Shown here piece by piece: positions 2,942 through 57,580 of a stretch of DNA of 64,000 nucleotides. A model generated the notes under the pieces. The model did not search any database and was not told the origin of the DNA. It was given only the letters and a program-made list of their open reading frames with translations. Source of the DNA: Verrucomicrobiia bacterium (GTDB taxonomy: Bacteria; Verrucomicrobiota; Verrucomicrobiia; Verrucomicrobiales; DEV007); NCBI GenBank assembly GCA_030425385.1, contig JAUIAH010000013.1, forward strand, positions 1 through 64,000, read 5' to 3'. Every line of letters begins with the position of its first letter. Position 1 is the stretch's first letter. The position numbers and the translations under genes were made by a program.

Positions 2942-4663
2942 TCAGTATGGCTCGTGAATCCCGAGGATTGATTGGCAGCAGAAGCGGATGAAGAGTCCGA
3001 GTGGGGTGTCTTTGCGATCACCCCACTTAGCCAAGGTGGTCTCCACCGCTTTGCGCGCTTTGCTTGAATGGCGCTTGCGGAGCTCCAATTCACGAACAGC
3101 CCTGAGGACGATGAATGGATGCTCAGATGCTAACTGTTGCACCAGGACGTCTTCGCTTGATTCCCGAGGTTGGAATCTCGTGGCCGCATCGGTGATGGCG
3201 TCAGCGAGTGGGAAGTGTTGTGGATCGCGACCAAGCTCGTAGGCCGTGCGATCCTGGGTCATATGATGCTGATCGAGTTCGTCGAGAAATCCGAGGTCTC
3301 GGGTAGCTAGCGCTTGCTCGCGTAAGAGGGTACGCATCTGTGCCAGGGTTTCGGCATGGGTTTCGTTGCTCGCGAGGTTGTGGATTTGGTGAGGGTCTTC
3401 CACGACTGCGTAGAGTTCTTCTTCCGGTCTGGTGGGACCTGCGAAGGCTCGTTGTGCCTGATTCATGGAGTCGAGCCGTGCTTTCCCGTAGAATTCTTGT
3501 CGGATCTCCCCCTGATCAGGATACACGCTGCGTTGATTCCACCCATAGTGCGGCATGTAGTTGCGGATGTAGAGGAAATCCTTTGTCCTGACAGAACGCG
3601 AGAAATCAAAGACTTCGTCGACACGATCACGGGCTCCGTAAACCACTTGCCGAGGGGATTGAGTTGCGCTGGCGGCACCTAGAAATGGGATGCCTTGCAT
3701 ATACTCAGGAATGGTTAATCCTAGCAAACTGAGAACGGTGGGAGGGAAATCGACGAAGCTCACCAGGCGATCGACCGTTTCGCCTGGCTGAGCGGGGGCG
3801 AGATGCTGATACTTGGAGGGAAAGCGAATCATGAGAGGCACGTGCATTCCAGAATCATGCAAGACGCGTTTCCCACGCGGCAATCCGCGGCCATGATCGG
3901 AGAAGAAGAAGACAATGGTGTCTTCCTCAAGTCCATCGTCTTCTAACGCTTGCAGCAACGCGCCGGTGTTGGCATCCATGACGGAAATGCAATCATAGTG
4001 GCGGGCGATGGTTTTCCGAATCACGGGTGTGTCGGGGTAGTAGGGGGGCACGGGGGCTTTGTCAGGATCATGATGATGCTCTTCTGGTAGCAGCGCCTGC
4101 ACTTCTTTCTGAAATTGCGCATAGGGCCAGGTCATGCTCCGCGACTGATGCGTGGTCATGTCGTTGAATACCGCAAAGAAGGGTTGTGCCTTTTGAGATC
4201 GCTGTCGCCAATGGGCTTGGGGCGAGCTTTCATTCCAGGCCTCCTCAATGAGGCGAGGTTCTGAACTCGTGTTGTAGTCTGTCTTCACACGGTTGGTCGT
4301 GTGATAGCCTGCCGCACGTAAGAATGCCGGCCAGGCACGGATCGTTTGAGGAATCGCAAAGGCACTCCGCATTTGGTGCGTGCCTAACGTTTGTGCGTAA
4401 ACGCCGGTGATGAGGCAGGAGCGGGAAGGGGAACAAACAGGTGCGGTGGCATAGGCTTGCGTGTAGCGAACACTCTCTTTGGCGAAACGATCGAGATGGG
4501 GCGTGTGCGCGTAGGCATCGCCATAGCAACCTAGGTGGGCGCTCATGTCCTCGACCGTGATCCAGAGGATGTTCGGTCGATCCTGGGCATGTGTGAGGAG
4601 GATTCCAGCGGTGAGAAAGTAGAGCACACGAAGCATGCCGTGACCCAAGCGGGTTTGACTCAC
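2942..4663 (-). CDS. Secreted sulfatase (S1 family, heparan/arylsulfatase type)
   Basis: Exported sulfatase likely to remove sulfate esters or sulfamates from polysaccharides. The N-terminus has a hydrophobic signal segment (LRVLYFLTAGILLTHAQ). Then come LWITVEDMSAHLGCYG with metal-binding acids, the C-x-P-S-R formylglycine site in VCSPSRSCLITG, and the metal-binding FFFSDHGRGLPRGK. The C-terminal 60-70 residues look like a helical repeat (LRAVRELELRKRH). The GTG at 4663 gives 573 residues; an ATG at 4636 would start directly at the signal peptide and is equally plausible. The architecture resembles N-sulfoglucosamine sulfohydrolase-like sulfatases of Planctomycetes and Verrucomicrobiota. The formylglycine-generating enzyme is not in this window. 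It is transcribed in the same direction as, and just downstream of, ftsY (about 23 nt gap), so it may be cotranscribed. Confidence 0.9.
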   Translation of the reverse strand: MSQTRLGHGMLRVLYFLTAGILLTHAQDRPNILWITVEDMSAHLGCYGDAYAHTPHLDRFAKESVRYTQAYATAPVCSPSRSCLITGVYAQTLGTHQMRSAFAIPQTIRAWPAFLRAAGYHTTNRVKTDYNTSSEPRLIEEAWNESSPQAHWRQRSQKAQPFFAVFNDMTTHQSRSMTWPYAQFQKEVQALLPEEHHHDPDKAPVPPYYPDTPVIRKTIARHYDCISVMDANTGALLQALEDDGLEEDTIVFFFSDHGRGLPRGKRVLHDSGMHVPLMIRFPSKYQHLAPAQPGETVDRLVSFVDFPPTVLSLLGLTIPEYMQGIPFLGAASATQSPRQVVYGARDRVDEVFDFSRSVRTKDFLYIRNYMPHYGWNQRSVYPDQGEIRQEFYGKARLDSMNQAQRAFAGPTRPEEELYAVVEDPHQIHNLASNETHAETLAQMRTLLREQALATRDLGFLDELDQHHMTQDRTAYELGRDPQHFPLADAITDAATRFQPRESSEDVLVQQLASEHPFIVLRAVRELELRKRHSSKARKAVETTLAKWGDRKDTPLGLFIRFCCQSILGIHEPY

Positions 4664-4686
4664 GTTGCCAATCTCAAAGAGCTACG

Positions 4687-5535
4687 CTAAAGAATCTGCT
4701 CTACAAACTCGCGCGCGTCGAAGCGCTGGAAGTCGTCTTCACCCTCGCCGGTGCCGATGAATCGGGGAGCGATGTCCAATTGGTCCTGGATGGCGGCGAT
4801 GACGCCGCCTTTGCCACTGCCGTCTAGTTTGGTCACGATGAGGCCTGTCATCTTGGTGAGGGCGGCTTGAAACTCTTTGGCCTGGGCGAGTGCGTTGGAG
4901 CCGGTGGTGGCGTCGACGACGATGAAGACTTCGTGCGGGGCGTCCGATTCCAGTTTCCCTAACACACGTTCCATCTTGCCGAGTTCTTCCATCAAGTTGT
5001 GGCGATTGTGCAAGCGTCCGGCGGTGTCGCAGAGGAGGAAATCAATGCCTTTCTTGCTAGCAGATTGATAGGCGGCATAACAGACTGACGAAGGATCAGC
5101 TTTGTAGGCGCCTTTCACGATGGGAATGTCAAGGCGTTGGGACCAGATTTCTAACTGCTCAATGGCTGCTGCCCGAAAGGTGTCTGCCGCGGCGAACATG
5201 ACGCTGTGCCCCTGACTTTGGATCCATTTCCCTAACTTTGCGGTCGATGTGGTCTTGCCGACACCATTCACGCCCACGACAAGGATAATGCTAGGTCCTG
5301 CTTCGGCCCGAGAGAGAGGAGGGTTCTCGGTTGGCAAGCGTTTGAGGATTTCCTCGCGACAGGCCTTGACAATATCCGTTCCGCTGATCGAGCGCTTTCG
5401 TTCCTGCAGGGAATCGATGATTTGCATCGAAAGAGGCACGCCGAGATCGCCGCCGATGAGGGCTTCTTCGAGGTCATCCCAATCGATGTCATCTTTCGAA
5501 AAGCGTGAGAGGATCTTGGAGAAGAGGCCAGCCAT
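4687..5535 (-). CDS. ftsY: Signal recognition particle receptor FtsY
   Basis: GTPase that docks SRP-ribosome complexes at the inner membrane. The 282 residues cover only the N and G domains; the acidic A domain of E. coli FtsY is absent, as in many other phyla. The P-loop is GVNGVGKTTS, followed by DTFRAAA, the G3 motif DTAGR and the G4 motif TKLDGSGKGG. The C-terminal FIGTGEGEDDFQRFDAREF block is characteristic of FtsY. It lies 15 nt downstream of nusB in the run ribH-nusB-ftsY. Confidence 0.97.
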   Translation of the reverse strand: MAGLFSKILSRFSKDDIDWDDLEEALIGGDLGVPLSMQIIDSLQERKRSISGTDIVKACREEILKRLPTENPPLSRAEAGPSIILVVGVNGVGKTTSTAKLGKWIQSQGHSVMFAAADTFRAAAIEQLEIWSQRLDIPIVKGAYKADPSSVCYAAYQSASKKGIDFLLCDTAGRLHNRHNLMEELGKMERVLGKLESDAPHEVFIVVDATTGSNALAQAKEFQAALTKMTGLIVTKLDGSGKGGVIAAIQDQLDIAPRFIGTGEGEDDFQRFDAREFVEQIL

Positions 5536-5550
5536 GAGTGCGGGGTGGGT

Positions 5551-5973
5551 TTAGGAGGAGGACAGATTCTCTTTGCGGATGCTGTCAAGGAGCCCGTTGA
5601 CGAAACCAGAGGACTCTGTGGCTCCGAATCGTTTGGCGATCTCCACGGCCTCATTGATCGCGACGGGGGCCGGGATGTCGTCCCGATGAAGGATCTCATA
5701 GATCGCCAGTCGGAGCACATTCCGATCGACCGCTGTCAGGCGTTCGAGCCGATAATTCTCCAAGTGAGCGTCGAGAACGTGGTCGATGGCTTCGCGATGA
5801 GCCTGGACGCCAGCGATCAATTCTTCCGCGAAAGCCTGGGCCTCTGGGCGGAGAGGACGGACTTCCCAGAAATCTTCTAGGGAATCGGTGGCCCGTTCGT
5901 TGAGCTCCTGGCTATAGAGAAACTGAATGGCGGCCTCGCGCCCGAGACGGCGCTTACCCGGTTTTGACGGCAT
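5551..5973 (-). CDS. nusB: Transcription antitermination protein NusB
   Basis: All-helical RNA-binding factor that with NusE (S10) supports rRNA antitermination. The 140 residues match the family length. The N-terminal RRLGREAAIQFLYSQEL and the C-terminal VAINEAVEIAKRFGATESSGFVNGLLDSI are hallmark segments. Its start overlaps the end of ribH by 20 nt, so the pair is probably translationally coupled, an arrangement found in many bacteria. Confidence 0.96.
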   Translation of the reverse strand: MPSKPGKRRLGREAAIQFLYSQELNERATDSLEDFWEVRPLRPEAQAFAEELIAGVQAHREAIDHVLDAHLENYRLERLTAVDRNVLRLAIYEILHRDDIPAPVAINEAVEIAKRFGATESSGFVNGLLDSIRKENLSSS

Positions 5974-6466
5974 CAGGATACGTTTCTCTCAGCTTGATGA
6001 AGAGTTCGGCCATGGAGACGGCGGCTTGGCCGGCCTCTGTCCCGCGATTGATCTCCTCGCCCATGCAGCGTTCTTCCGCTTGCTCTTCGTCATCGAGGAG
6101 GAGGACCTCATTGACCACCGGCACGTGCTGATGGATCGCGATATCTTGAAGGCCTTGAAAGACGGAATTGGCCACGAGATCGGCGTGTTCCGTCTCGCCT
6201 CGAATGATAACGCCCAGAGCAATGATGACGTCCACATTCGTGTGCGAGGTGACGTAGGAGGCACAGACGGGGATCTCGTAGGCACCGGGCACACGGTAAA
6301 GGGGCACCGAGGCATTGGGCATGCTGGCAAGGAGCTCGTCCCGTGCGTGCTCGATCATGCTCGCCACATAGCCTTCGTGGTAGGTGCTGGCAATGATCGC
6401 CACCGTCTTGCGGGGGCCGATCAGTCGAGGGCGACGTCGGAGTGAGGAGGAGGATGAGCCTGCCAT
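5954..6466 (-). CDS. ribH: 6,7-dimethyl-8-ribityllumazine synthase
   Basis: Penultimate enzyme of riboflavin synthesis, condensing the ribityl-uracil diamine with dihydroxybutanone phosphate. It has the segments VPGAYEIPVCA, IIALGVIIRGETEHADLV (with the catalytic histidine) and a C-terminal helix. In place of the usual GVLT stretch it reads VVNEVLLLDDEEQAEERC, so the domain is slightly divergent. It is 170 residues long. It is the first gene of the ribH-nusB-ftsY run; the 66-nt gap to mntR suggests a separate promoter. Confidence 0.94.
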   Translation of the reverse strand: MAGSSSSSLRRRPRLIGPRKTVAIIASTYHEGYVASMIEHARDELLASMPNASVPLYRVPGAYEIPVCASYVTSHTNVDVIIALGVIIRGETEHADLVANSVFQGLQDIAIHQHVPVVNEVLLLDDEEQAEERCMGEEINRGTEAGQAAVSMAELFIKLRETYPDAVKTG

Positions 6467-6532
6467 AGCGGGCTGTTACCTGAACGAAAAGCCCTCGGAA
6501 AGCAACTAGAGATAGTCAAAGAGTTGGCGCCG

Positions 6533-6979
6533 TCAGCTGTGGGCCCGGGCAATGACCCGCTCCACGAGCTTGGGCTGGCGCTGGAGCTCGGCCAGGAGAC
6601 CTTGAAAGACTCGCAGGGTGGGGGAACTCATGTGGTGTTCCATCCCTTCCACGTCCCGGTGAATGTCCAATTCATCCAATTGGAAGAGCCGGAGAAATGC
6701 TGACAACGTTTCGTGTCGTTGGACGATGGCTTGGGCCACGCGTTCGCCGTCTGGCGTCAGCGCCATGCCGCGGTATTTCTCGTAGGTCACTAAGCCCTCG
6801 CCTGCCAACCGCTGCACCATGTTGCTGACGCTCGCTTGCGAGATGTCCAGGTTGTTCGCGATATCGATCACTCTGGCGTAGCCCTTTTCTGTGATCAGAT
6901 TGAGGATCTGCTCCAAGTAATCTTCGTAAGCCACCGAGGTGTGAGGATCGAGATCGATGACTTTGGGCGATTCAGGCAT
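6533..6979 (-). CDS. mntR: Manganese-responsive DtxR-family repressor MntR
   Basis: Metal-sensing transcriptional repressor of Mn uptake. The 148 residues carry an N-terminal winged helix (DIANNLDISQASVSNMVQRL ... YEKYRG) and a dimerisation domain, without the SH3-like domain of DtxR. All six metal ligands known from B. subtilis MntR align: Asp20 and Glu23 (YEDYLEQI), His89 (QRHETL), and Glu111, Glu114 and His115 (DVEGMEHHMS). This supports manganese rather than iron specificity. It is divergent from a Mn-type ABC operon with a palindrome between them. A promoter TTGACT-18-TAATTC reads toward mntR on the minus strand (7036 to 7007), so autoregulation is likely. Confidence 0.93.
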   Translation of the reverse strand: MPESPKVIDLDPHTSVAYEDYLEQILNLITEKGYARVIDIANNLDISQASVSNMVQRLAGEGLVTYEKYRGMALTPDGERVAQAIVQRHETLSAFLRLFQLDELDIHRDVEGMEHHMSSPTLRVFQGLLAELQRQPKLVERVIARAHS

Positions 6980-6990
6980 GACGGAGAAAC

Positions 6991-7023
6991 TTAGGGATTT
7001 GACAAAGAATTAGCCATCCCTAA
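6991..7023. promoter_or_regulatory. Candidate MntR operator (TTAGGGAT-N17-ATCCCTAA)
   Basis: Perfect 8-base inverted arms at 6991-6998 and 7016-7023 lie between mntR and the transporter operon. The left arm abuts the -35 box and the right arm overlaps the -10 box of the transporter promoter. Position next to mntR and symmetry make MntR the obvious ligand (inference). Confidence 0.7.
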
Positions 7024-7026
7024 TAT
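6999..7026 (+). promoter_or_regulatory. Consensus sigma70-type promoter of the Mn transporter operon
   Basis: TTGACA at 6999-7004, a 16-base spacer and TAATAT at 7021-7026. The predicted start of transcription is near 7033, only about 5 nt before the ATG at 7039, so the mRNA would be nearly leaderless; no Shine-Dalgarno sequence precedes the ATG. Confidence 0.75.
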
Positions 7027-7038
7027 TCGTAGTCAAGT

Positions 7039-7977
7039 ATGAAACTAGTCTTCCTCTCTCTACTCGTTCTCGGGGTTGTCTCTTGTGGAAAGCAATCACC
7101 CGAGGGATCGCTCAGTGACGGTGTTGATGTGGTGGCCACGACAACGATGATCGCTGATATGGTGCGAGTCATTGGTGGGAACGATATCCGTGTGGAGGCA
7201 CTCATGCGGCCGGGAGTCGATCCGCATTTGTACAAGGCATCGCCTGCGGATATGTCGACCTTGAATCGGGCGAAGGTGATCTTCTACAATGGCCTCTTGT
7301 TAGAAGGAAAGATGGAACGTCTCTTTACGCGCTTGGCCAAGGATGGGAAACAGGTGCACGCGGTGGCGGAGGCGCTTCCTAAGGAGCAACTGTTAGAACC
7401 GGATGATACGGAGGGCCATCCTGATCCCCATATCTGGGGGGATGCGAGCCTGTGGGCGCAGGCCGTTCCTGTGGTGGTCGATGGGCTTTCGAAGGCCTTT
7501 CCTGAGAACGCCGAGGGCTTTGCTCAGCGTGGCGATGCTTATCGGGAGCAGTTGGAAAGCTTGCACCAATGGGCACAAGCGCGGTTACAGACCATTCCTG
7601 AGGGGAAACGCAAGTTGGTGACGAGCCACGACGCCTTTGCCTACTTTGGGCGGGCCTATCAAATGGACGTTATTGGCGTACAGGGCATCTCCACGGCCTC
7701 GGAGCCCAGCGTTGCCGACCGCACGCGGATGGTGGATTTCATCAAGGTACATCAGATTCCAGCGATCTTTGTGGAAAGCAGCGTGAATGCGACGTTGATC
7801 GAACAGATTGGCAAAGATGCGAACGTGACCATTGGAGGCGAACTCTTCTCCGATGCGATGGGCGAGCCAGGCGTGACGGAGACCGTAGGAGGTGAAACTT
7901 ACGACGTGGGAACGTATGTCGGCATGCTGAAGCATAACGTAAACACCGTGGTGAAGGCCCTGACAAAGACCCCATGA
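7039..7977 (+). CDS. mntA: Metal ABC transporter substrate-binding lipoprotein (Mn type)
   Basis: Cluster A-I solute-binding protein that captures Mn (or Zn/Fe) outside the inner membrane. It has a lipoprotein signal with lipobox GVVSC (Cys16). The expected metal ligands are visible: His in GVDPHLYKAS, His in DPHIWGDASLW, Glu in FVESSVNATL and Asp in ELFSDAMGEPG. The His-rich loop typical of ZnuA is missing, which with the mntR neighbour favours manganese. The 312 residues fit the family. The start at 7039 is required for the signal peptide although it leaves almost no leader. The stop overlaps the next ATG by 4 nt. Confidence 0.92.
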   Translation: MKLVFLSLLVLGVVSCGKQSPEGSLSDGVDVVATTTMIADMVRVIGGNDIRVEALMRPGVDPHLYKASPADMSTLNRAKVIFYNGLLLEGKMERLFTRLAKDGKQVHAVAEALPKEQLLEPDDTEGHPDPHIWGDASLWAQAVPVVVDGLSKAFPENAEGFAQRGDAYREQLESLHQWAQARLQTIPEGKRKLVTSHDAFAYFGRAYQMDVIGVQGISTASEPSVADRTRMVDFIKVHQIPAIFVESSVNATLIEQIGKDANVTIGGELFSDAMGEPGVTETVGGETYDVGTYVGMLKHNVNTVVKALTKTP

Positions 7978-8768
7978 GGGACGAAGACCATTCCGAGATC
8001 GCCCTGGAGACGCACGATCTCACGGTGGCCTATCACAAGAAGCCCGTGCTCTACGGGATCGATGTGACCATTCGTCCGGGGCAATTGGTGGGCATCATGG
8101 GGCCCAATGGTGCCGGGAAATCCACGCTTATCAAAGCGATTATGGGGCTGTTAGAGCCTGCCGGTGGATGGATCAAGATCTTTGGTAAAGAGAATACGTC
8201 TCAGAGGAAGCGGGTCGCCTACGTGCCTCAGCGGCGGGAGGTGGATTGGGACTTCCCGGTCACCGTCATGGATGTGGTGCTGATGGGGCGCTATGGGCAC
8301 CTTGGCTTATTCAAGCGGCCTGGAAAGCTGGATCGGGACATTGCGATGCAGGCCCTGGAAAAGGTGAACATGATTCCCTATGCCGGGCGGCAGATTTCCA
8401 ATCTCAGTGGCGGCCAACAGCAACGCGTCTTTCTCGCGCGCGCCCTCGCGCAGGAGAGTGATCTCTACTTGATGGATGAGCCGTTTGTGGGCGTGGATGC
8501 AGCGACGGAGTCGACGATCATTGATCTCTTGCATGAACTGCGGAGGCAGGGAAAGACGATCCTAGTCGTGCATCATGATCTGCCCACGGCGCGCAAGTAC
8601 TTCGATGCGCTTCTCCTTCTCAACATGCGCCTCATCGCCTACGGGCCGGTGGAGGAGATCTTTCAGGCCGATCTCTTGCAGCGCGCGTATGGCGGGCGCC
8701 TGACCATCTTGAGTGAGGTGGTGGACGAAGTGGGTGGCAAATCGTTAGTCGACAAGAGCGCGGGATGA
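7974..8768 (+). CDS. mntB: Metal ABC transporter ATP-binding protein
   Basis: Cytoplasmic ATPase of the manganese importer. It shows Walker A GPNGAGKST, signature LSGGQQQR, Walker B LYLMDEP and an H-loop in VVHHD. The 264 residues are typical of the TroB/MntB/ZnuC group. The VDWDFPVTVMDVVLMGRYGHLG segment after the Q-loop is typical of Mn/Zn importers. It overlaps both neighbours by 4 nt (ATGA), so the four-gene operon is translationally coupled. Gene symbols for such operons vary (mnt, tro, sit, mts). Confidence 0.94.
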   Translation: MRDEDHSEIALETHDLTVAYHKKPVLYGIDVTIRPGQLVGIMGPNGAGKSTLIKAIMGLLEPAGGWIKIFGKENTSQRKRVAYVPQRREVDWDFPVTVMDVVLMGRYGHLGLFKRPGKLDRDIAMQALEKVNMIPYAGRQISNLSGGQQQRVFLARALAQESDLYLMDEPFVGVDAATESTIIDLLHELRRQGKTILVVHHDLPTARKYFDALLLLNMRLIAYGPVEEIFQADLLQRAYGGRLTILSEVVDEVGGKSLVDKSAG

Positions 8769-10234
8769 CTGTGAGGATCGCCATTGGGATTGGGTTTCTC
8801 TTTCTGCTCACTGCGATGCCGGTGCAGGCAGCCAAGATATCGGAACTCGTGGAAGTGGACGTTGCGAGTCAGTGGGCCCGTTTCTTCAGTTTCCGTGATC
8901 CGGCCGTGCGCCAGATCCTGCTCGGATGCTTGTTCATGGGAATCAACTTTGGGGTCCTCGGAAGCTTCGTGGTGGTGCGACGCATGGCCTTGGTAGGCGA
9001 TACGCTCTCTCATGCCGTGTTGCCAGGGGTGGCCTTCGGCTTTCTCTTCACCATGAGTAAAGAACCTTGGGCGATTCTGTTAGGCGCAACGCTCGCGGGA
9101 TTGCTTGGCACTGCCTTGGTATCCTGGATCAAGCAGAGTACCAAGCTGAAGCAAGATGCGGCATTGGGGATGGTGTTAGCCACTTTCTTTGCCTTAGGGG
9201 TCTGTGTGATCAAGCTTATCGAGGGCATTCCCTCTGTGAACAAGAGCGGCCTTGATCACTTCTTCTATGGGCAAGCGGCGGCCCTTGGGGCCAGTGATCT
9301 TTGGATGATGGGCGGCACGGCGGTTCTCGCCTGTGTGCTCGTGGGTGTCTTCTATCGTCCTCTCCTGGCAGCGAGCTTTGATCGCGTCTACACGCAATCG
9401 ATCGGGCTACCTGAGCGATTTCTCTATCATTTGCTCATGTTTCTGCTCGCACTTGCCACGGTGGTGGCCTTGCAGGCGGTCGGGGCACTGATGGTGAGTG
9501 CCATGCTGATCACGCCTGCTGCCACTGCCTATCTCCTCACCAAACGGATGCATCACATGTTGCTGGTGGCCACCGGTTTGGCTATCGGTTCCTGTGTCTT
9601 GGGGGCCTTCTTCTCGTTTGTGGGAGAGGGGATGGTGAAGCATGCCTTGCCCACGGGCCCCTCGATGGCCTTGTGTGCAGGGGGCTTCTTTGCCCTGGCG
9701 TTCTTCTTTAGTCCGGATCACGGCTTTCTCATCCGTGGCTACCGTCGGCTCTCACAAACACGCCAGATCACGATTGAGAATACGCTCAAGGCGGTCTACC
9801 GTGCCATGGAGTCGGATCGCTTTTCCAATGAAGGCATTTCTGTGAGGCGCTTGGCGACGGAGGCTCGGGAGACAATGGAGGCGACACAGAAGCGTCTACG
9901 TATGTTAGTGCGAGATGGGCTTGCGAGCTTGGCGCGTGCGGGAGATGTGGTCTATCTCACTCCAGATGGCTTACAACACGCCTCTCGCGTGGTGCGCAAC
10001 CACCGGCTGTGGGAATTGTATCTCACGAATGAAGCCGATTACGATGCGGATCACGTGCATGCTGATGCGGAGAAAGTGGAGCACATCTTGAATGAAGAGC
10101 AGGTCATGCAGTTGGAGCGGTATTTGGACTATCCGGAGGAAGATCCGCACGGGAAACGGATTCCTTCCCTTCGGGATACGCAGCGTCTCCCACTGCGTGA
10201 TCTGGTTGGTAAGGAGGAGGACCCGCCATCATGA
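8765..10234 (+). CDS. mntC: Metal ABC transporter permease fused to a DtxR-like domain
   Basis: Inner-membrane permease of the ABC-3 family with an extra cytoplasmic regulatory-type domain. Residues 1-23 look like a signal or first membrane helix, then about eight transmembrane segments run to residue 325, including GSFVVVRRMALVGDTLSHAVLPG and AVGALMVSAMLITPAATAYLL. From about residue 335 to the end is a winged helix plus metal-binding/dimerisation segment similar to DtxR/MntR (RRLATEARETMEATQKRLRML; RVVRNHRLWELYL; HVHADAEKVEHIL). The order RxHRLWELYL ... HxxAExxEH resembles the ligand region of DtxR proteins. This fusion is known in several phyla. The second domain may sense cytoplasmic metal directly at the transporter (inference). 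Confidence 0.9.
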   Translation: MTVRIAIGIGFLFLLTAMPVQAAKISELVEVDVASQWARFFSFRDPAVRQILLGCLFMGINFGVLGSFVVVRRMALVGDTLSHAVLPGVAFGFLFTMSKEPWAILLGATLAGLLGTALVSWIKQSTKLKQDAALGMVLATFFALGVCVIKLIEGIPSVNKSGLDHFFYGQAAALGASDLWMMGGTAVLACVLVGVFYRPLLAASFDRVYTQSIGLPERFLYHLLMFLLALATVVALQAVGALMVSAMLITPAATAYLLTKRMHHMLLVATGLAIGSCVLGAFFSFVGEGMVKHALPTGPSMALCAGGFFALAFFFSPDHGFLIRGYRRLSQTRQITIENTLKAVYRAMESDRFSNEGISVRRLATEARETMEATQKRLRMLVRDGLASLARAGDVVYLTPDGLQHASRVVRNHRLWELYLTNEADYDADHVHADAEKVEHILNEEQVMQLERYLDYPEEDPHGKRIPSLRDTQRLPLRDLVGKEEDPPS

Positions 10235-11223
10235 ATCTCATCCCACCGTTTGATGCCCACCGGGTCTTCATCGAGCCCTGGACGGTGAATCTGCCGCAGA
10301 CGGTGCTCATCGCGAGCATCGGCTTGATTGTGGCCTTGTCGTCCGCCTTGATCGGGAACTACCTGGTGCTGCGGCGCATGTCGATGTTAGGGGATGCGAT
10401 CAGTCACAGTGCCCTGCCTGGCATTGTCATCGCCTTTCTCATCTCAGGGAGCCGGGATTCCTTCGCCCTTACCATCGGTGCACTCATCGCAGGTGTCGTC
10501 ACCACCGTTCTCATTGAGTTCATCCATCGGCGTACCATCGTCAAGGTCGATGCTGCCATTGGGATCGTCTTCTCTATGCTCTTTGCCATCGGGGTGCTGT
10601 TGCTAGAATTTGCGCCCCACACGGATCTCGATCCCGACTGCGTGCTCTTTGGGCAGTTGGAGTATCTCGGTGTCTACGCGGGCAGCGATCCTCTACAGAG
10701 TCTTCTCGCATCACCACAGTTCCAACTTCTGGCGGGCGTCTTTGCTCTCACGGTCTTGCTCATTGCCCTCTTCTACAAAGAGCTTCTTGTCAGTTCCTTT
10801 GACCCTCTGTTAGCCGGTGCGCAAGGGTTTCGACCCACCTTTATCCATTACGCCATGATGTGCATCCTCTCCCTCATCGTGGTCAGTGCTTTCGAAGCCG
10901 TCGGAGCGATCCTGGTGATCGCCATGCTCATTCTTCCGGCTGCAAGCGCGCACCTGGTGACCAATCGTCTCCTTCACATGATCCTCGTGAGTGTGGTCCA
11001 CGCGCTCATCAGCACAATTGGAGGGGTGCACCTCGCCATCTGGCTGAATTGCCCCACCTCTGCGTGTATGGTCCTCGTGGGAGCCGCTCTCTTTGCCATC
11101 GCCTGGTTCATCCATAGCCGACCCTTTGCGAGCGTGGACCTGGAAGATGTGGACCAGGCTAACAAGAACGCTCTCCTATCGCCATCTCAAGGGCTTGCGG
11201 GAGAAACGGGAGAATGCCAGTAG
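10231..11223 (+). CDS. mntD: Metal ABC transporter permease, second subunit
   Basis: Second ABC-3 family permease, forming the membrane channel with the preceding fused subunit. The 330 residues contain about eight to nine hydrophobic helices. The segments NYLVLRRMSMLGDAISHSALPGIVIAF and AVGAILVIAMLILPAASAHLV are diagnostic for the family. There is no extra C-terminal domain, unlike its partner. The start overlaps the previous stop by 4 nt. The gene ends 4 nt before the convergent end of hpt. Confidence 0.93.
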   Translation: MNLIPPFDAHRVFIEPWTVNLPQTVLIASIGLIVALSSALIGNYLVLRRMSMLGDAISHSALPGIVIAFLISGSRDSFALTIGALIAGVVTTVLIEFIHRRTIVKVDAAIGIVFSMLFAIGVLLLEFAPHTDLDPDCVLFGQLEYLGVYAGSDPLQSLLASPQFQLLAGVFALTVLLIALFYKELLVSSFDPLLAGAQGFRPTFIHYAMMCILSLIVVSAFEAVGAILVIAMLILPAASAHLVTNRLLHMILVSVVHALISTIGGVHLAIWLNCPTSACMVLVGAALFAIAWFIHSRPFASVDLEDVDQANKNALLSPSQGLAGETGECQ

Positions 11224-53370: not shown

Positions 53371-53521
53371 CCTAGATGGCTTCTCTTGCTCGCTCGCTGC
53401 GATGCCAGAGTACGCGCAGGTGGCCACGCTGACGAGTGCGTGAGTTTGCTTGGAGGCGGTGACGAGACGAGTTTCTGCAGTTTCTCGTCACAACAAACGC
53501 AGAACCTTCCATACTCGGGTG

Positions 53522-55006
53522 ATGCTGCCAACTGATCAGTCGCTACTCGTGGCCTATGTGAAAGGTCAAGACGATGCCTTTCGCGCCGTCTTGGAGCGCC
53601 ATGCAGGCCTGGTCTATGGCGTCGCGCTTCGGCTCACGGGGGATGCAGAGGCGGCGCGTGAAGTCGTGCAAGACGTCTTCCTTGTGTTGGCCCGAAAGGC
53701 GCGCCGTCTAACGGATCATCCAAGCGTTGCCGCCTGGCTGCATCGCACGACGCGCCATGTCGCCCGCGACGCGGTGCGAGCGAAGCAGCGACACGAGCGC
53801 AAAGTTGCTCGATTTGCGCACTCGATCGGCGGCGATGCGGCATCGCCCAGCTCGAGCCCCCATCTGGAATTGCTGGATGGCGCCATTGCGAAATTGCCCG
53901 CTCAAGAACGCGAGGCCATCCTGCTTCGCTTCTTCGAGGACCGCGAGTATGGTTGCATTGCGAGGGAACTGAATCTTTCGGAGGCGGCCGTCCGCAAACG
54001 CGTTTCCCGTGGTTTGCGGCGGCTTCAATCTCTCATTGGCTCCCAAGCAGCCTGTGGGGCCTTGCTCGCATCACTTGTAGTGGCACCGCCGAAAGGGCTC
54101 GTGGCCGCCGTGATGCCGTCGATTCCTGCTAGTGCCAGCAATGGCGTCCCTTGGACGTTGCTCTTTCTCATGACACACAATCATCTCCTTAAGGCCGTCG
54201 GCGCTCTCATCATCCTCGGATTGCTTTCCTTTGGTATTTATCAATCTTCTCAACGAGAGCACTATCAGAATCTTTACGAAAGCTCGCGAACAGGAGACGC
54301 ACCGCGGGGAACGTCCTTGGACAATGACGCTCAAGAACGAACTCGTTTGGAGAGTGAGGTTGCTCAACTCAAGCAACGTTTGGCGAATGCGGAACGCAAC
54401 GTTTTAGACGCCAATGCGAAGTATGAGGCACTGGCAGCCTCTACCAAAGGGCTCGAAGACGAATTGGTGCTTTCTTATGGTCGAATCGATGACGTTGGGA
54501 AGCAGTATGGCACCTTGATTGCAGAAGCCATGGCTCTGAAGCAATTGGAAGATCAGGGTGAGGTCACACCGGATGACGACCGTTGGAAAGCCTTTCTCAA
54601 CCTCGCGACCTCCATCACCGGACTATCGCAGGAGATTGTCGGCTTTGAAGACAATCTTGATAAAGGGCCACCATTCTTCTCTGCGGTCTATGCCAGTGTG
54701 TTTGACTTGAATGACGCCGAGAGGGCGCGTGTGCAGGCGGTCTTCGAATCTCACTTTGCTGTGGCGGCAGAGCGCCAGCTCACCCTTTCAAACATTCCAA
54801 AGGAGGATCGGGAGTCGATAGATGATTTCATGGAGGCACGGCGCGCCTACTTTGATCAGGTGCGCAGCGATCTCCGAGCAGCCTTGCCTGAACGCGCTTT
54901 CGCTACTTTCGATGAGAACGTGGAGAGACGTGGCTACGGATTTCGCAATCTCAAGCTCCGCGGGGTGCCGCTCGCGTTTAGCCTTGGTGGCGATCAGTCA
55001 CCTTAG
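53522..55006 (+). CDS. ECF-type sigma factor with transmembrane helix and extracytoplasmic domain
   Basis: Sigma70 region 2 (DAFRAVLERHAGLVYGVALRLTGDAEAAREVVQDVFLVLAR) and region 4 (KLPAQEREAILLRFFEDREYGCIARELNLSEAAVRKRVSR) occupy residues 1-160. A proline-containing linker leads to a membrane helix (KAVGALIILGLLSFGIY, about 222-240), then a coiled coil (RLESEVAQLKQRLANAERN) and a helical domain of about 180 residues that would lie outside the cytoplasm. Start ATG 53522; the longer frame from 53450 adds 24 residues with no sigma features. There is no anti-sigma gene: the sensor seems built in. It lies 82 nt upstream of the PL10 fusion, a possible target. Confidence 0.88.
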   Translation: MLPTDQSLLVAYVKGQDDAFRAVLERHAGLVYGVALRLTGDAEAAREVVQDVFLVLARKARRLTDHPSVAAWLHRTTRHVARDAVRAKQRHERKVARFAHSIGGDAASPSSSPHLELLDGAIAKLPAQEREAILLRFFEDREYGCIARELNLSEAAVRKRVSRGLRRLQSLIGSQAACGALLASLVVAPPKGLVAAVMPSIPASASNGVPWTLLFLMTHNHLLKAVGALIILGLLSFGIYQSSQREHYQNLYESSRTGDAPRGTSLDNDAQERTRLESEVAQLKQRLANAERNVLDANAKYEALAASTKGLEDELVLSYGRIDDVGKQYGTLIAEAMALKQLEDQGEVTPDDDRWKAFLNLATSITGLSQEIVGFEDNLDKGPPFFSAVYASVFDLNDAERARVQAVFESHFAVAAERQLTLSNIPKEDRESIDDFMEARRAYFDQVRSDLRAALPERAFATFDENVERRGYGFRNLKLRGVPLAFSLGGDQSP

Positions 55007-55088: not shown

Positions 55089-57443
55089 ATGAAATCCCTG
55101 CTAGTCGTCGCTACTCTGGTAGCTTCCGTTTCCCTAACGTTCGCACAGTCAGAAGAGCCCCCATCGTTGCCTCCCTTTCGTGATGATCTGCTCAAGAATG
55201 ACGCGGATTGGTTTCAAAGCGATGTCGCTCGTGCGATCGCCGATAGCGTGCTCCTCTATCAATCGAAAGAAGGTGGGTGGCCCAAGAGCACCAATTTGTC
55301 GATGGCGCCCAAGTCGCCCAAAGACTTACCGTCAACGTCTCGTGCGAATAGTTTAGACAATGATGCGACCACGGTGCCGATGCATTACTTGGCGCGCATG
55401 GTGGAAGAGACTGGAGAGGAGGCGTATCAAGCGGCGTTTATGCGCGGCTTGGATTACTTGTTTGAAGCGCAGTATCCGACAGGTGGCTGGCCGCAGTTTT
55501 ATCCATTACGCAAAGGCTATTATTCGCATATCACGTTCAATGATGGGGCCATGATTCGGGTGTTGGAACTGCTGCGCGCGGTGGCTGCCTCAGCACCGGG
55601 CTACGGCTTTGTGGATGCCGAGCGACGCGCTAAGGCATCCGAGGCCGTGCAGAAGGGGATTGATTGCATCTTAAAGGCCCAGATTCGGCAGGAGGGGGAA
55701 CGCACGGTGTGGTGCGCGCAGCATGATGCGATCACGTTGGCACCTGCCAAGGCAAGGGCTTATGAATTGCCGTCTCTCTCTGGAAGTGAAAGTGTTGGGA
55801 TCACGCGATTTCTTATGGGTATCGAGGATCCCACGCCCGAAGTTGTCGCTGCCATTGATGGTGCGGTCGCCTGGTTTGAAGCAAGCAAGATCACTGGGCT
55901 GCGATATTCGCGATTCAGAGATGAGGAAGGGAATAAAGACGCGCAGGTGAAATCTGATCCCGACGCGCCTGCATTGTGGGCACGTTTCTATGCGTTGGGC
56001 ACCAATCGACCACTCTTTGTTGGGCGTGATAGTCGCATTGGGTATGTGTTTGAGGACGTAGAGCGCGAACGGCGCGGCGGTTATTCCTATTATGGCACCT
56101 GGGCGAATCATCTGTTAGCACGTCACTACCCTGAATGGAAGGCGCGGATCGATCACGCTGCCTTGAAAGCGGCGGCGGAGGCATCAGCGGCGCGCTCCCT
56201 GACGTCTGCGCGGCCGCGCGTGTTGGTCTCGACGGATGCCGGTGGTACGGATTTCGACGATTTCCAATCGCTGGTGCATTTGTTTGCTTATGCTGATCGA
56301 TTCGATATCGAAGGCATCCTCTCATCACCCTATGGAATTGGTCGCAAAGAACACATTCTCAAAGTGATCGATGCGTATGAGAGAGATTACCCCAATTTAA
56401 AGACTTATTCTGACCGATATCCGACGCCCGATGCCTTGCGTGAGCGCTCGAAACAAGGGGCGATTGCTTCCGCAGGGTTGCGTGGCTACGCGGAACGCAC
56501 AGAAGGTTCAGATTGGATCATTGACTGTGCCAAACGCGAGGATGAACGGCCGCTTTGGGTATTGGTTTGGGGCGGCATTGATGACTTAGCCCAGGCGTTG
56601 CATGATGATCCATCGATCAAAGAGAAGGTGCGCGTGTATTTCATCGGCGGGCCTAACAAGAAATGGTCAGCGCCAGCGTACGATTACATTGCCCGCGAGC
56701 ATCCGGACCTTTGGATCATTGAAGCCAACTCGACCTATCGTGGTTGGTTTGTGGGCGGTGATCAGCGGGGTGATTGGCACAAGGACGCCTTTGTGCCCAA
56801 GCATGTGGCGGGAAAAGGCGCGATGGGCGATTTCTTCACCGGCATCTCCTTCGGCGGACGTCGTCGCACAGAGGTCAAGATGGGGGACACACCATCCCTG
56901 ATGTATCCCTTGGCAGCCACCGCCGATGACCCGTCGGCGGATACCTGGGGTGGTTCCTTCGTGCGTGCCTGGGAGCGTCCGCGCACCACTTTTGATCATG
57001 CCGAGGAGAACGCGCCGACCAAGGCGGATGAAGTCGAGGCCTTCGCGGTGGTGGAGATCATCTATCATTTAGACGAACCTGCCCCCGAAGGCACGACGGC
57101 GGCCTTGCAAGTGGATGGCCAGGAATTCACCGCCTTTCCGGGCGAAGGCAACCAGTGGCATTTCATCTTCTCCCCCAAGTCGGCCAAGTCCTGGCGTTAC
57201 AAGACCAAGAGCACGCACCCGGCGCTCGACGGCAAGACGGGTGGCTTCACCTCAGTCTTTCCCAGGCCTGAGCAAGCCGATGCACCCTCCTCACAGTTTC
57301 CTCATTGGTGGACCGATAATCCAGACCCCGCCGTCGCCGATGGCAATCATCAGGGGGCGAAGACGATCAGCAAGTGGCGGGTGGATTTCCTCAGCGACTT
57401 TGCTGAGCGCATGAAACGCTGCGCCGCGCCTAAGTCAGAGTGA
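55089..57443 (+). CDS. Secreted PL10 pectate lyase fused to Sde182-type nucleoside-hydrolase-like domain
   Basis: 784 residues with a signal peptide (KSLLVVATLVASVSLTFAQ). Residues about 35-370 are a PL10 (Pec_lyase) catalytic domain: GGWPKSTNLSM, SLDNDATTVPMHYLARM, YPTGGWPQFYPLRKGYYSHITFNDGAMIRVLELL and WCAQHDAITLAPAKARAYELPSLSGSES. From about residue 385 comes a DUF1593/Sde182 nucleoside-hydrolase-like domain (RVLVSTDAGGTDFDDFQSLVHL, GPNKKWSAPAYDYIA, WGGSFVRAWERPRTTF) and a C-terminal Sde182 beta domain. PL10 eliminates alpha-1,4-galacturonan. ATG 55053 is an alternative start. The fusion is one continuous frame. Confidence 0.85.
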   Translation: MKSLLVVATLVASVSLTFAQSEEPPSLPPFRDDLLKNDADWFQSDVARAIADSVLLYQSKEGGWPKSTNLSMAPKSPKDLPSTSRANSLDNDATTVPMHYLARMVEETGEEAYQAAFMRGLDYLFEAQYPTGGWPQFYPLRKGYYSHITFNDGAMIRVLELLRAVAASAPGYGFVDAERRAKASEAVQKGIDCILKAQIRQEGERTVWCAQHDAITLAPAKARAYELPSLSGSESVGITRFLMGIEDPTPEVVAAIDGAVAWFEASKITGLRYSRFRDEEGNKDAQVKSDPDAPALWARFYALGTNRPLFVGRDSRIGYVFEDVERERRGGYSYYGTWANHLLARHYPEWKARIDHAALKAAAEASAARSLTSARPRVLVSTDAGGTDFDDFQSLVHLFAYADRFDIEGILSSPYGIGRKEHILKVIDAYERDYPNLKTYSDRYPTPDALRERSKQGAIASAGLRGYAERTEGSDWIIDCAKREDERPLWVLVWGGIDDLAQALHDDPSIKEKVRVYFIGGPNKKWSAPAYDYIAREHPDLWIIEANSTYRGWFVGGDQRGDWHKDAFVPKHVAGKGAMGDFFTGISFGGRRRTEVKMGDTPSLMYPLAATADDPSADTWGGSFVRAWERPRTTFDHAEENAPTKADEVEAFAVVEIIYHLDEPAPEGTTAALQVDGQEFTAFPGEGNQWHFIFSPKSAKSWRYKTKSTHPALDGKTGGFTSVFPRPEQADAPSSQFPHWWTDNPDPAVADGNHQGAKTISKWRVDFLSDFAERMKRCAAPKSE

Positions 57444-57554: not shown

Positions 57555-57580
57555 AGCCCCAGGCATACGTGCCTGGGGCT
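57555..57580. terminator. GC-rich perfect hairpin AGCCCCAGGCA-TACG-TGCCTGGGGCT
   Basis: Eleven-base perfect arms around TACG. It is followed by GATTCCGTTTTGA, only a weak T-tract, so it may be a terminator for the PL10 gene, an mRNA-stabilising element, or a REP-like palindrome. Confidence 0.5.

Follow-up and report, generated by a model that had tools for sequence, protein, structure and literature searches.

The PL10 family of pectate lyases (PF09492, TIGR02474) includes the solved structures 1r76 and 1gxm, the latter of Pel10Acm, in which we take R524 to be the catalytic base and D389 and D451 to be the Ca-ligand aspartates; these roles reportedly stem from Charnock et al. 2002. The Sde182 or DUF1593 family (PF07632) is represented by the structure 2yhg. 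To our knowledge, no activity is known for any DUF1593 protein, a structure having been solved since 2011. The Ca2+-dependent nucleoside hydrolases (IU-NH, RihA/B/C; PF01156) have D10, D14/D15 and D242 as their catalytic and Ca2+ residues and bind the cis-2,3-diol of ribose via Ca2+. Apiose, a furanose of the plant wall that is attached to galacturonic acid in RG-II and in apiogalacturonan, has the same cis-2,3-diol as ribose, so that apiofuranose presents an equivalent diol. A review describes the nucleoside hydrolase domain of Sde_0182 as inactive on nucleosides and proposes that it is a furanose-interacting module (PMC8910321). Apiogalacturonan is found in duckweeds (PMC6062639), and a gene cluster of the type present in E. 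coli SE15 supports growth on D-apiose (PMC13001218). The name DUF1593 was not found in the literature searched.

Domain layout of the fusion protein

The window, which is the whole stretch of 64,000 nucleotides analysed here, carries on its forward strand a complete gene (55089-57443) for a PL10-DUF1593 protein of 784 amino acids. All 784 codons are free of stops, and the frame opens with a plausible signal peptide, MKSLLVVATLVASVSLTFA (55089-55145), read from the sequence; the whole-fusion model has a helix at residues 2-18. Both Pfam domains score far beyond their curated cut-offs. The initial annotation had described a PL10 lyase and an Sde182-like module in one frame as a secreted polypeptide, and the single open frame and the two profile matches bear this out, with secretion predicted from the signal peptide. 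All parts of the gene listed below lie on that strand.

The PL10 domain (residues 58-342; 55260-56114) matched PF09492 with an E value of 4.3e-102 over profile positions 1-291 of 292, and also the NCBIfam pectate lyase model TIGR02474 (E 1e-97), whose cut-off it passes. The solved PL10 structures 1r76, 1gxm and 1gxo matched the first half of the protein with E values from 1e-60 to 9e-54. Asp90 (55356-55358), by its position and its alignment to 1gxm/1gxo, Asp152 (55542-55544) and Arg223 (55755-55757) are kept and align with D389, D451 and R524 of Pel10Acm, respectively. The likeness to the PL10 family extends over the entire domain and these three residues, whereas the added DUF1593 module sets the window protein apart, as does the fact that most DUF1593-linked PL10 domains form a subclade of their own. 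In the PL10 tree, 14 linked domains, including that of the window, share this subclade with a single unlinked member, and the Massilia/Duganella PL10 domains form a separate group; the linkage label requires 6 changes on the tree, as against 16.3 when shuffled.

A linker (residues 343-376; 56115-56216) with neither a signal peptide nor a Met joins the two halves. The whole-fusion model showed a confident core in each domain and a helix at residues 326-372 between them; with the thin alignment used, PL10 stretches 222-228 and 270-340 were modelled with low confidence.

The DUF1593 domain (residues 377-624; 56217-56960) covers PF07632 fully (profile positions 1-268 of 268; E 2.2e-53) and the second half of the protein matched the Sde182 structure 2yhg with an E value of 2.8e-21. 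An AlphaFold2 model of this half, built with 71 relatives, reached a mean pLDDT of 94 and a pTM of 0.93. Among solved structures it comes closest to 2yhg (Z 32.1, rmsd 2.4 and 29% identity over 274 residues), followed by true nucleoside hydrolases, for which Z is about 21 across some 255 residues. Asp383 (56235-56237), Asp390-Asp391 (56256-56261) and Asp600 within KMGDTPS (56886-56888) do not vary in any of the 71 relatives. From motif and fold, D383, D390/D391 and D600 are putatively equivalent to D10, D14/D15 and D242 of the nucleoside hydrolases and would form a metal and catalytic site. The local profile alignment to RihA/B/C is weak (MGDTPSLMY against MHDLCAIAW), which leaves the mapping by sequence short of confident, and a global hhalign comparison of the DUF1593 clade with RihA/B/C gave no usable alignment. 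The His beside D242 in the Rih proteins is a Gly in the window protein; replacement of this leaving-group His would be expected if the leaving group were a sugar hydroxyl.

Although the fold is common to both and acidic residues stand at corresponding motif positions, membership in the nucleoside hydrolase family was rejected. The window protein scored 19.9 bits against PF01156, below the cut-off of 34.2 bits, and the fingerprint DxDxxxDD is replaced by S381-x-D383 ... D390-D391 (SxDxxxxxxDD), with a spacing three residues longer. Secretion and the Gly in place of the leaving-group His are further differences.

A beta-sandwich at about residues 626-737 (56964-57299) sits between the WGGSF motif and the final helix. 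The C-terminal end of the nucleoside-hydrolase-like fold follows (57300-57440; PHWWTD ... DFLSDFAERM), its motif starting at residue 738. Seven proteins in alignment A1 (L049, L050, L051, L054, L055, L057 and L058; loci carry the prefix L, genomes G and contigs of the window's own genome C) are without the sandwich. Since some clade members without the insert still align at the end of the fold, the sandwich is nested, not appended, and differs from the C-terminal one that is usual; the initial annotation had recognised its presence but misplaced it. PF16586 (DUF5060) was matched at E<0.1 by 30 of the 71 clade members (best E 2e-5), the window copy itself giving a weak match (E 0.07), and the sandwich matches residues 3-87 of 4n0r with E 0.0013. 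The window clade is distinguished from 2yhg by the DUF5060-like insertion that separates WGGxF from the final helix, and the window protein also by the PL10 domain fused in front. The candidate identification of 4n0r as a GH140 protein was rejected because a GH140 query gave no match to it, and the DUF5060 domain was therefore left out as a link to apiose.

A 518-aa frame on the same strand (53450-55006) precedes the fusion gene by about 80 nt; by eye, its N-terminus is sigma-70-like and its C-terminus is extended by a long additional part. Downstream, a perfect hairpin, AGCCCCAGGCA-TACG-TGCCTGGGGCT (57555-57580), was noticed by eye and may be a terminator. On inspection by eye, the neighbours of the fusion gene in the window appear unrelated.

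Recurrence of the fusion

When 84,980 species genomes were scanned with the alignment of the clade, at least 567 relatives were confirmed, of which the best 80 were kept. Among the matches listed were Verrucomicrobia, Planctomycetes, Bacteroidota, Latescibacterota, Massilia/Duganella and others, and the majority of the clade members listed stand alone as secreted proteins of some 440 aa, nested sandwich included. The order PL10-DUF1593 in one frame was found in the window, in L137 (Duganella sp. sic0402) and in L168 and L193 (both Planctomycetales), and the reverse order DUF1593-PL10 in L176, L187 (Bythopirellula polymerisocia) and L049. On the tree of DUF1593 domains, a quick tree with several open forks, the fusion label amounts to 7 changes, which suggests that the PL10 fusion arose repeatedly, about seven times.

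PL10 and DUF1593 are also often neighbouring genes in relatives: PL10 lies immediately upstream of a DUF1593 gene with its own start in L144, L136, L161 and L158, and in L130 and L174 the separate genes occur in the opposite order. Such neighbours lend some plausibility to an artefact of assembly or sequencing that joined two adjacent genes. The DUF1593 half of the window protein, however, has neither a start codon nor a signal peptide of its own, unlike the stand-alone proteins of L144 and L130, and same-order fusions with similar junctions are present in other genomes (L137, L168, L193). On these two grounds a chance joining or frameshift merger was rejected as extremely improbable; judged by its sequence, the fusion is genuine, neither an artefact nor unique.

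Further architectures were observed among the relatives. L168 (Planctomycetales HKST-UBA30; 2998-6660) encodes a 1220-aa triple fusion of PL10, a DUF1593 domain of the window clade and a DUF1593 domain of a second subfamily. L049 (G096; 8218-11025) encodes a 935-aa triple fusion that opens with a DUF1593 domain lacking the nested sandwich, continues with PL10 and ends in a part resembling by eye an alpha/beta hydrolase. L012 (6306-8771, contig C27 of the own genome) and L050 (1403-3856) each encode a protein of some 820 aa with the DUF1593 domain in second place; their first part appears by eye nucleoside-hydrolase-like, making them a tandem of two related folds. L051 (G096; 6136-9090) combines DUF1593 with a partner of about 640 aa that has no Pfam match at E 1e-5. 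L143 (1484-4525) and L160 (9323-11446) hold two DUF1593 domains per frame adjoining a clade member, DUF1593 paralogue families here expanding side by side. Viral contigs contributed one distant DUF1593 match (38% identity), at 3001-3774 of L204 (IMGVR_UViG_3300019487_000003); this 168-kb contig is catalogued as viral and may be host DNA.

Pectin genes and putative apiose genes around the clade

PL10 was found in or near 22 of the 80 clade loci (the best 80 of at least 567); the 11 control loci, which belong to other DUF1593 subfamilies, have none. The binomial probability for this count among the best 80 is about 1.6e-26, given an assumed background of 0.9% (loci of 15 kb in genomes with three PL10 genes per 5 Mb). 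In a survey of 387 genomes of the phylum, inspected by eye, no other above-cut-off DUF1593 lay close to a PL10 gene on the same contig, the nearest being about 40 kb away. The phylum survey and the control loci led us to reject PL10 linkage as a trait of all DUF1593 proteins.

Other partners recur as well. GH127, the beta-L-arabinofuranosidase family, is fused as DUF1593-GH127 in L048 and L172 and as GH127-DUF1593 in L177, and in L175 and L185 a clade DUF1593 gene immediately follows GH127. A clade DUF1593 is fused to a GDSL-type (CE12-like) esterase in L186, and in L166 a DUF1593 domain is in frame with the C-terminus of a pectinesterase and a PL1-like helix. The identity of the beta-helix proteins of L166, L052 and L156 as PL1 was rejected for want of Pfam support, and they are termed PL1-like by motif. 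With these associations, a role of the DUF1593 clade in pectin breakdown is very likely. The suggestion that the fusion offers a lead to the function of DUF1593 proteins is well supported by the recurrent pairing with PL10 and by the fusions to GH127 and to an esterase; the link holds for one DUF1593 subfamily and in part for a second.

Genes indicative of apiose use were detected in part of the same sample. A GH140-like apiosidase (PF13204) is present in 8 of the 80 clade loci (best 80 of at least 567), these proteins matching 5msy, presumably BT1012, at E 7e-122 and 8t9w, deposited as 'Apiosidase', at E 3e-75. The GH140 apiosidases share their gene clusters and the proposed sugar with the window clade; they are a family unrelated to the DUF1593 module, and the window protein gave no PF13204 match at E<=1. 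AptA-like proteins occur in 9 and the AptB-like part of the split transketolase in 11 of these best 80 loci, with identities to the E. coli SE15 proteins of 47-54% and 36-43%, respectively, and the AptA-like proteins score far lower against ordinary TktA. A FucI-type isomerase, an FGGY kinase, a DUF2291 protein and a ribose-type ABC importer are often found alongside. In total, AptA, AptB, the isomerase or GH140 was present in 14 of the best 80 loci and in 0 of the 11 controls, and 5 of the 14 hold PL10 too. The PL10-DUF1593 fusion of L193 directly adjoins the isomerase and split transketolase genes, and L190 has the order transketolase, kinase, binding protein, DUF2291, ATPase, permease, DUF1593, DUF1593 (window clade), PL10, DUF1593. 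The other 66 of the best 80 loci, many of them on short contigs, contain no apiose gene within 8 kb.

The D-apiose operon of E. coli SE15 and the operons described here have in common the AptA/AptB-like split transketolase, the FGGY kinase, DUF2291 and a ribose-type importer. They differ in that a FucI-type isomerase replaces two SDR oxidoreductases and in that kinase and importer are of other subfamilies. Orthology of the kinase, binding protein and permease with E. coli AplK and its partners was rejected, as they are nearer to GlpK, RbsB and RbsC. A FucI-like isomerase, together with a kinase and importer no nearer to the apiose proteins of E. coli than to those ribose and glycerol counterparts, leaves GH140 and AptA/AptB as the sole markers of apiose. 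A close AptA orthologue (>60% identity) was present in 6 of 17 named clade genomes, including Bythopirellula with its reversed fusion. No AptA match at E<=1e-40 was obtained in 7 of 8 genomes of the Massilia/Duganella group, one of them with the fusion, or in Haloferula; such carriers may have another apiose route or use a different sugar.

The window's own genome contains seven DUF1593 genes and two PL10 matches, the fusion among them. Its contig C25 holds a complete operon of isomerase, AptA, AptB, kinase, binding protein, DUF2291, ATPase and permease, adjoining an AraC regulator and GDSL esterases; the fusion gene is located apart from it, on contig C14. The corresponding operon of G096 ends with a DUF1593 gene of the second subfamily. 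Among 289 genomes sampled from the order, the isomerase was present in three, and two of these (G000 and G096) were among the six with the insert-type clade, an overlap with a hypergeometric probability of about 1e-3 by our own arithmetic on the 289 genomes.

Proposed role of the DUF1593 module

Fold and residue invariance indicate that the DUF1593 module is probably a furanosidase, and the gene neighbourhood points, with roughly even confidence, to apiose as its sugar. A non-catalytic carbohydrate-binding module tethering PL10 to furanose-decorated pectin would agree with the proposal made for Sde_0182, which showed no nucleosidase activity (PMC8910321), with the name 'cellulose-binding protein' given to the founding structure 2yhg, and with the nested sandwich, which could itself be a binding domain. 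We nevertheless find such a module rather doubtful: it need not keep four acidic residues invariant in 71 of 71 relatives, secretion as a free-standing protein of about 440 aa, the case for most of the clade members listed, is unusual for a binding module, and several distinct DUF1593 paralogues are adjacent within one cluster (L190, L158).

If the module is a furanosidase, the fusions to GH127 in both orders and the GH127 genes directly upstream could instead suggest a target in the side chains of RG-I/RG-II other than apiose, namely arabinofuranose or aceric acid; a GH127 fusion would suit a beta-arabinofuranose or aceric acid context just as well as one of apiose. This is unlikely given the GH140-like, AptA/AptB or isomerase genes in 14 of the 80 clade loci (best 80 of at least 567), and arabinofuranose does not have the cis-2,3-diol that Ca2+ binds in nucleoside hydrolases. 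The direct fusion to a lyase could also mean that the module processes the unsaturated oligogalacturonides made by PL10; but the clade is fused to GH127 too, its neighbours include apiose-type sugar genes, and among the 25 of 91 families listed in the neighbour Pfam tally no uronate pathway family is prominent, which makes such processing very unlikely. The initial annotation, according to which the module acts on or binds products of pectin-like breakdown, is upheld as to the pectin; the context favours removal of a side-chain furanose over action on the products. Compared with the initial annotation, the lead to function has gained in both strength and specificity.

The reading we prefer, which we hold to be about as probable as its converse, is that the gene product is secreted and degrades pectin with two enzymes, PL10 and a metal (Ca2+)-dependent apiofuranosidase of the nucleoside hydrolase fold. 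After secretion, predicted from the sequence, the protein would bind decorated galacturonan, and metal-assisted hydrolysis of a furanose would take place at D383/D390/D391/D600, as fold and invariance suggest. This furanose would most probably be beta-D-apiofuranose, in apiogalacturonan (duckweeds, seagrasses) or RG-II. Removal of apiose may then expose the backbone for PL10, which by family knowledge would cleave de-esterified homogalacturonan by beta-elimination with R223 as the base. The released apiose would, by homology, be taken up by the ribose-type ABC importer and used by the C25 operon. A GH140-like apiosidase is already present in some clusters, and the role of DUF1593 must be different from it or redundant; the module might therefore be expected on a different linkage, for example apiose-apiose or the other position on galacturonate.

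More generally, though with somewhat less than even confidence, we propose that the clade is an undescribed family of O-glycoside hydrolases with the nucleoside hydrolase fold and a ribose-type metal site, which cleaves beta-D-apiofuranose from pectin and has repeatedly been fused to the lyases and hydrolases for which this side chain must first be taken off. The fusion and its context give DUF1593 a specific candidate substrate, apiogalacturonan, and a candidate sugar, apiose. If true, a family of nucleoside hydrolase fold would be added to the glycoside-cleaving enzymes, and the presence of several DUF1593 paralogues per pectin cluster would be explained by different apiose linkages. The pectin of duckweeds and seagrasses is said to resist ordinary pectinases, and an enzyme of this kind would be a tool for it.
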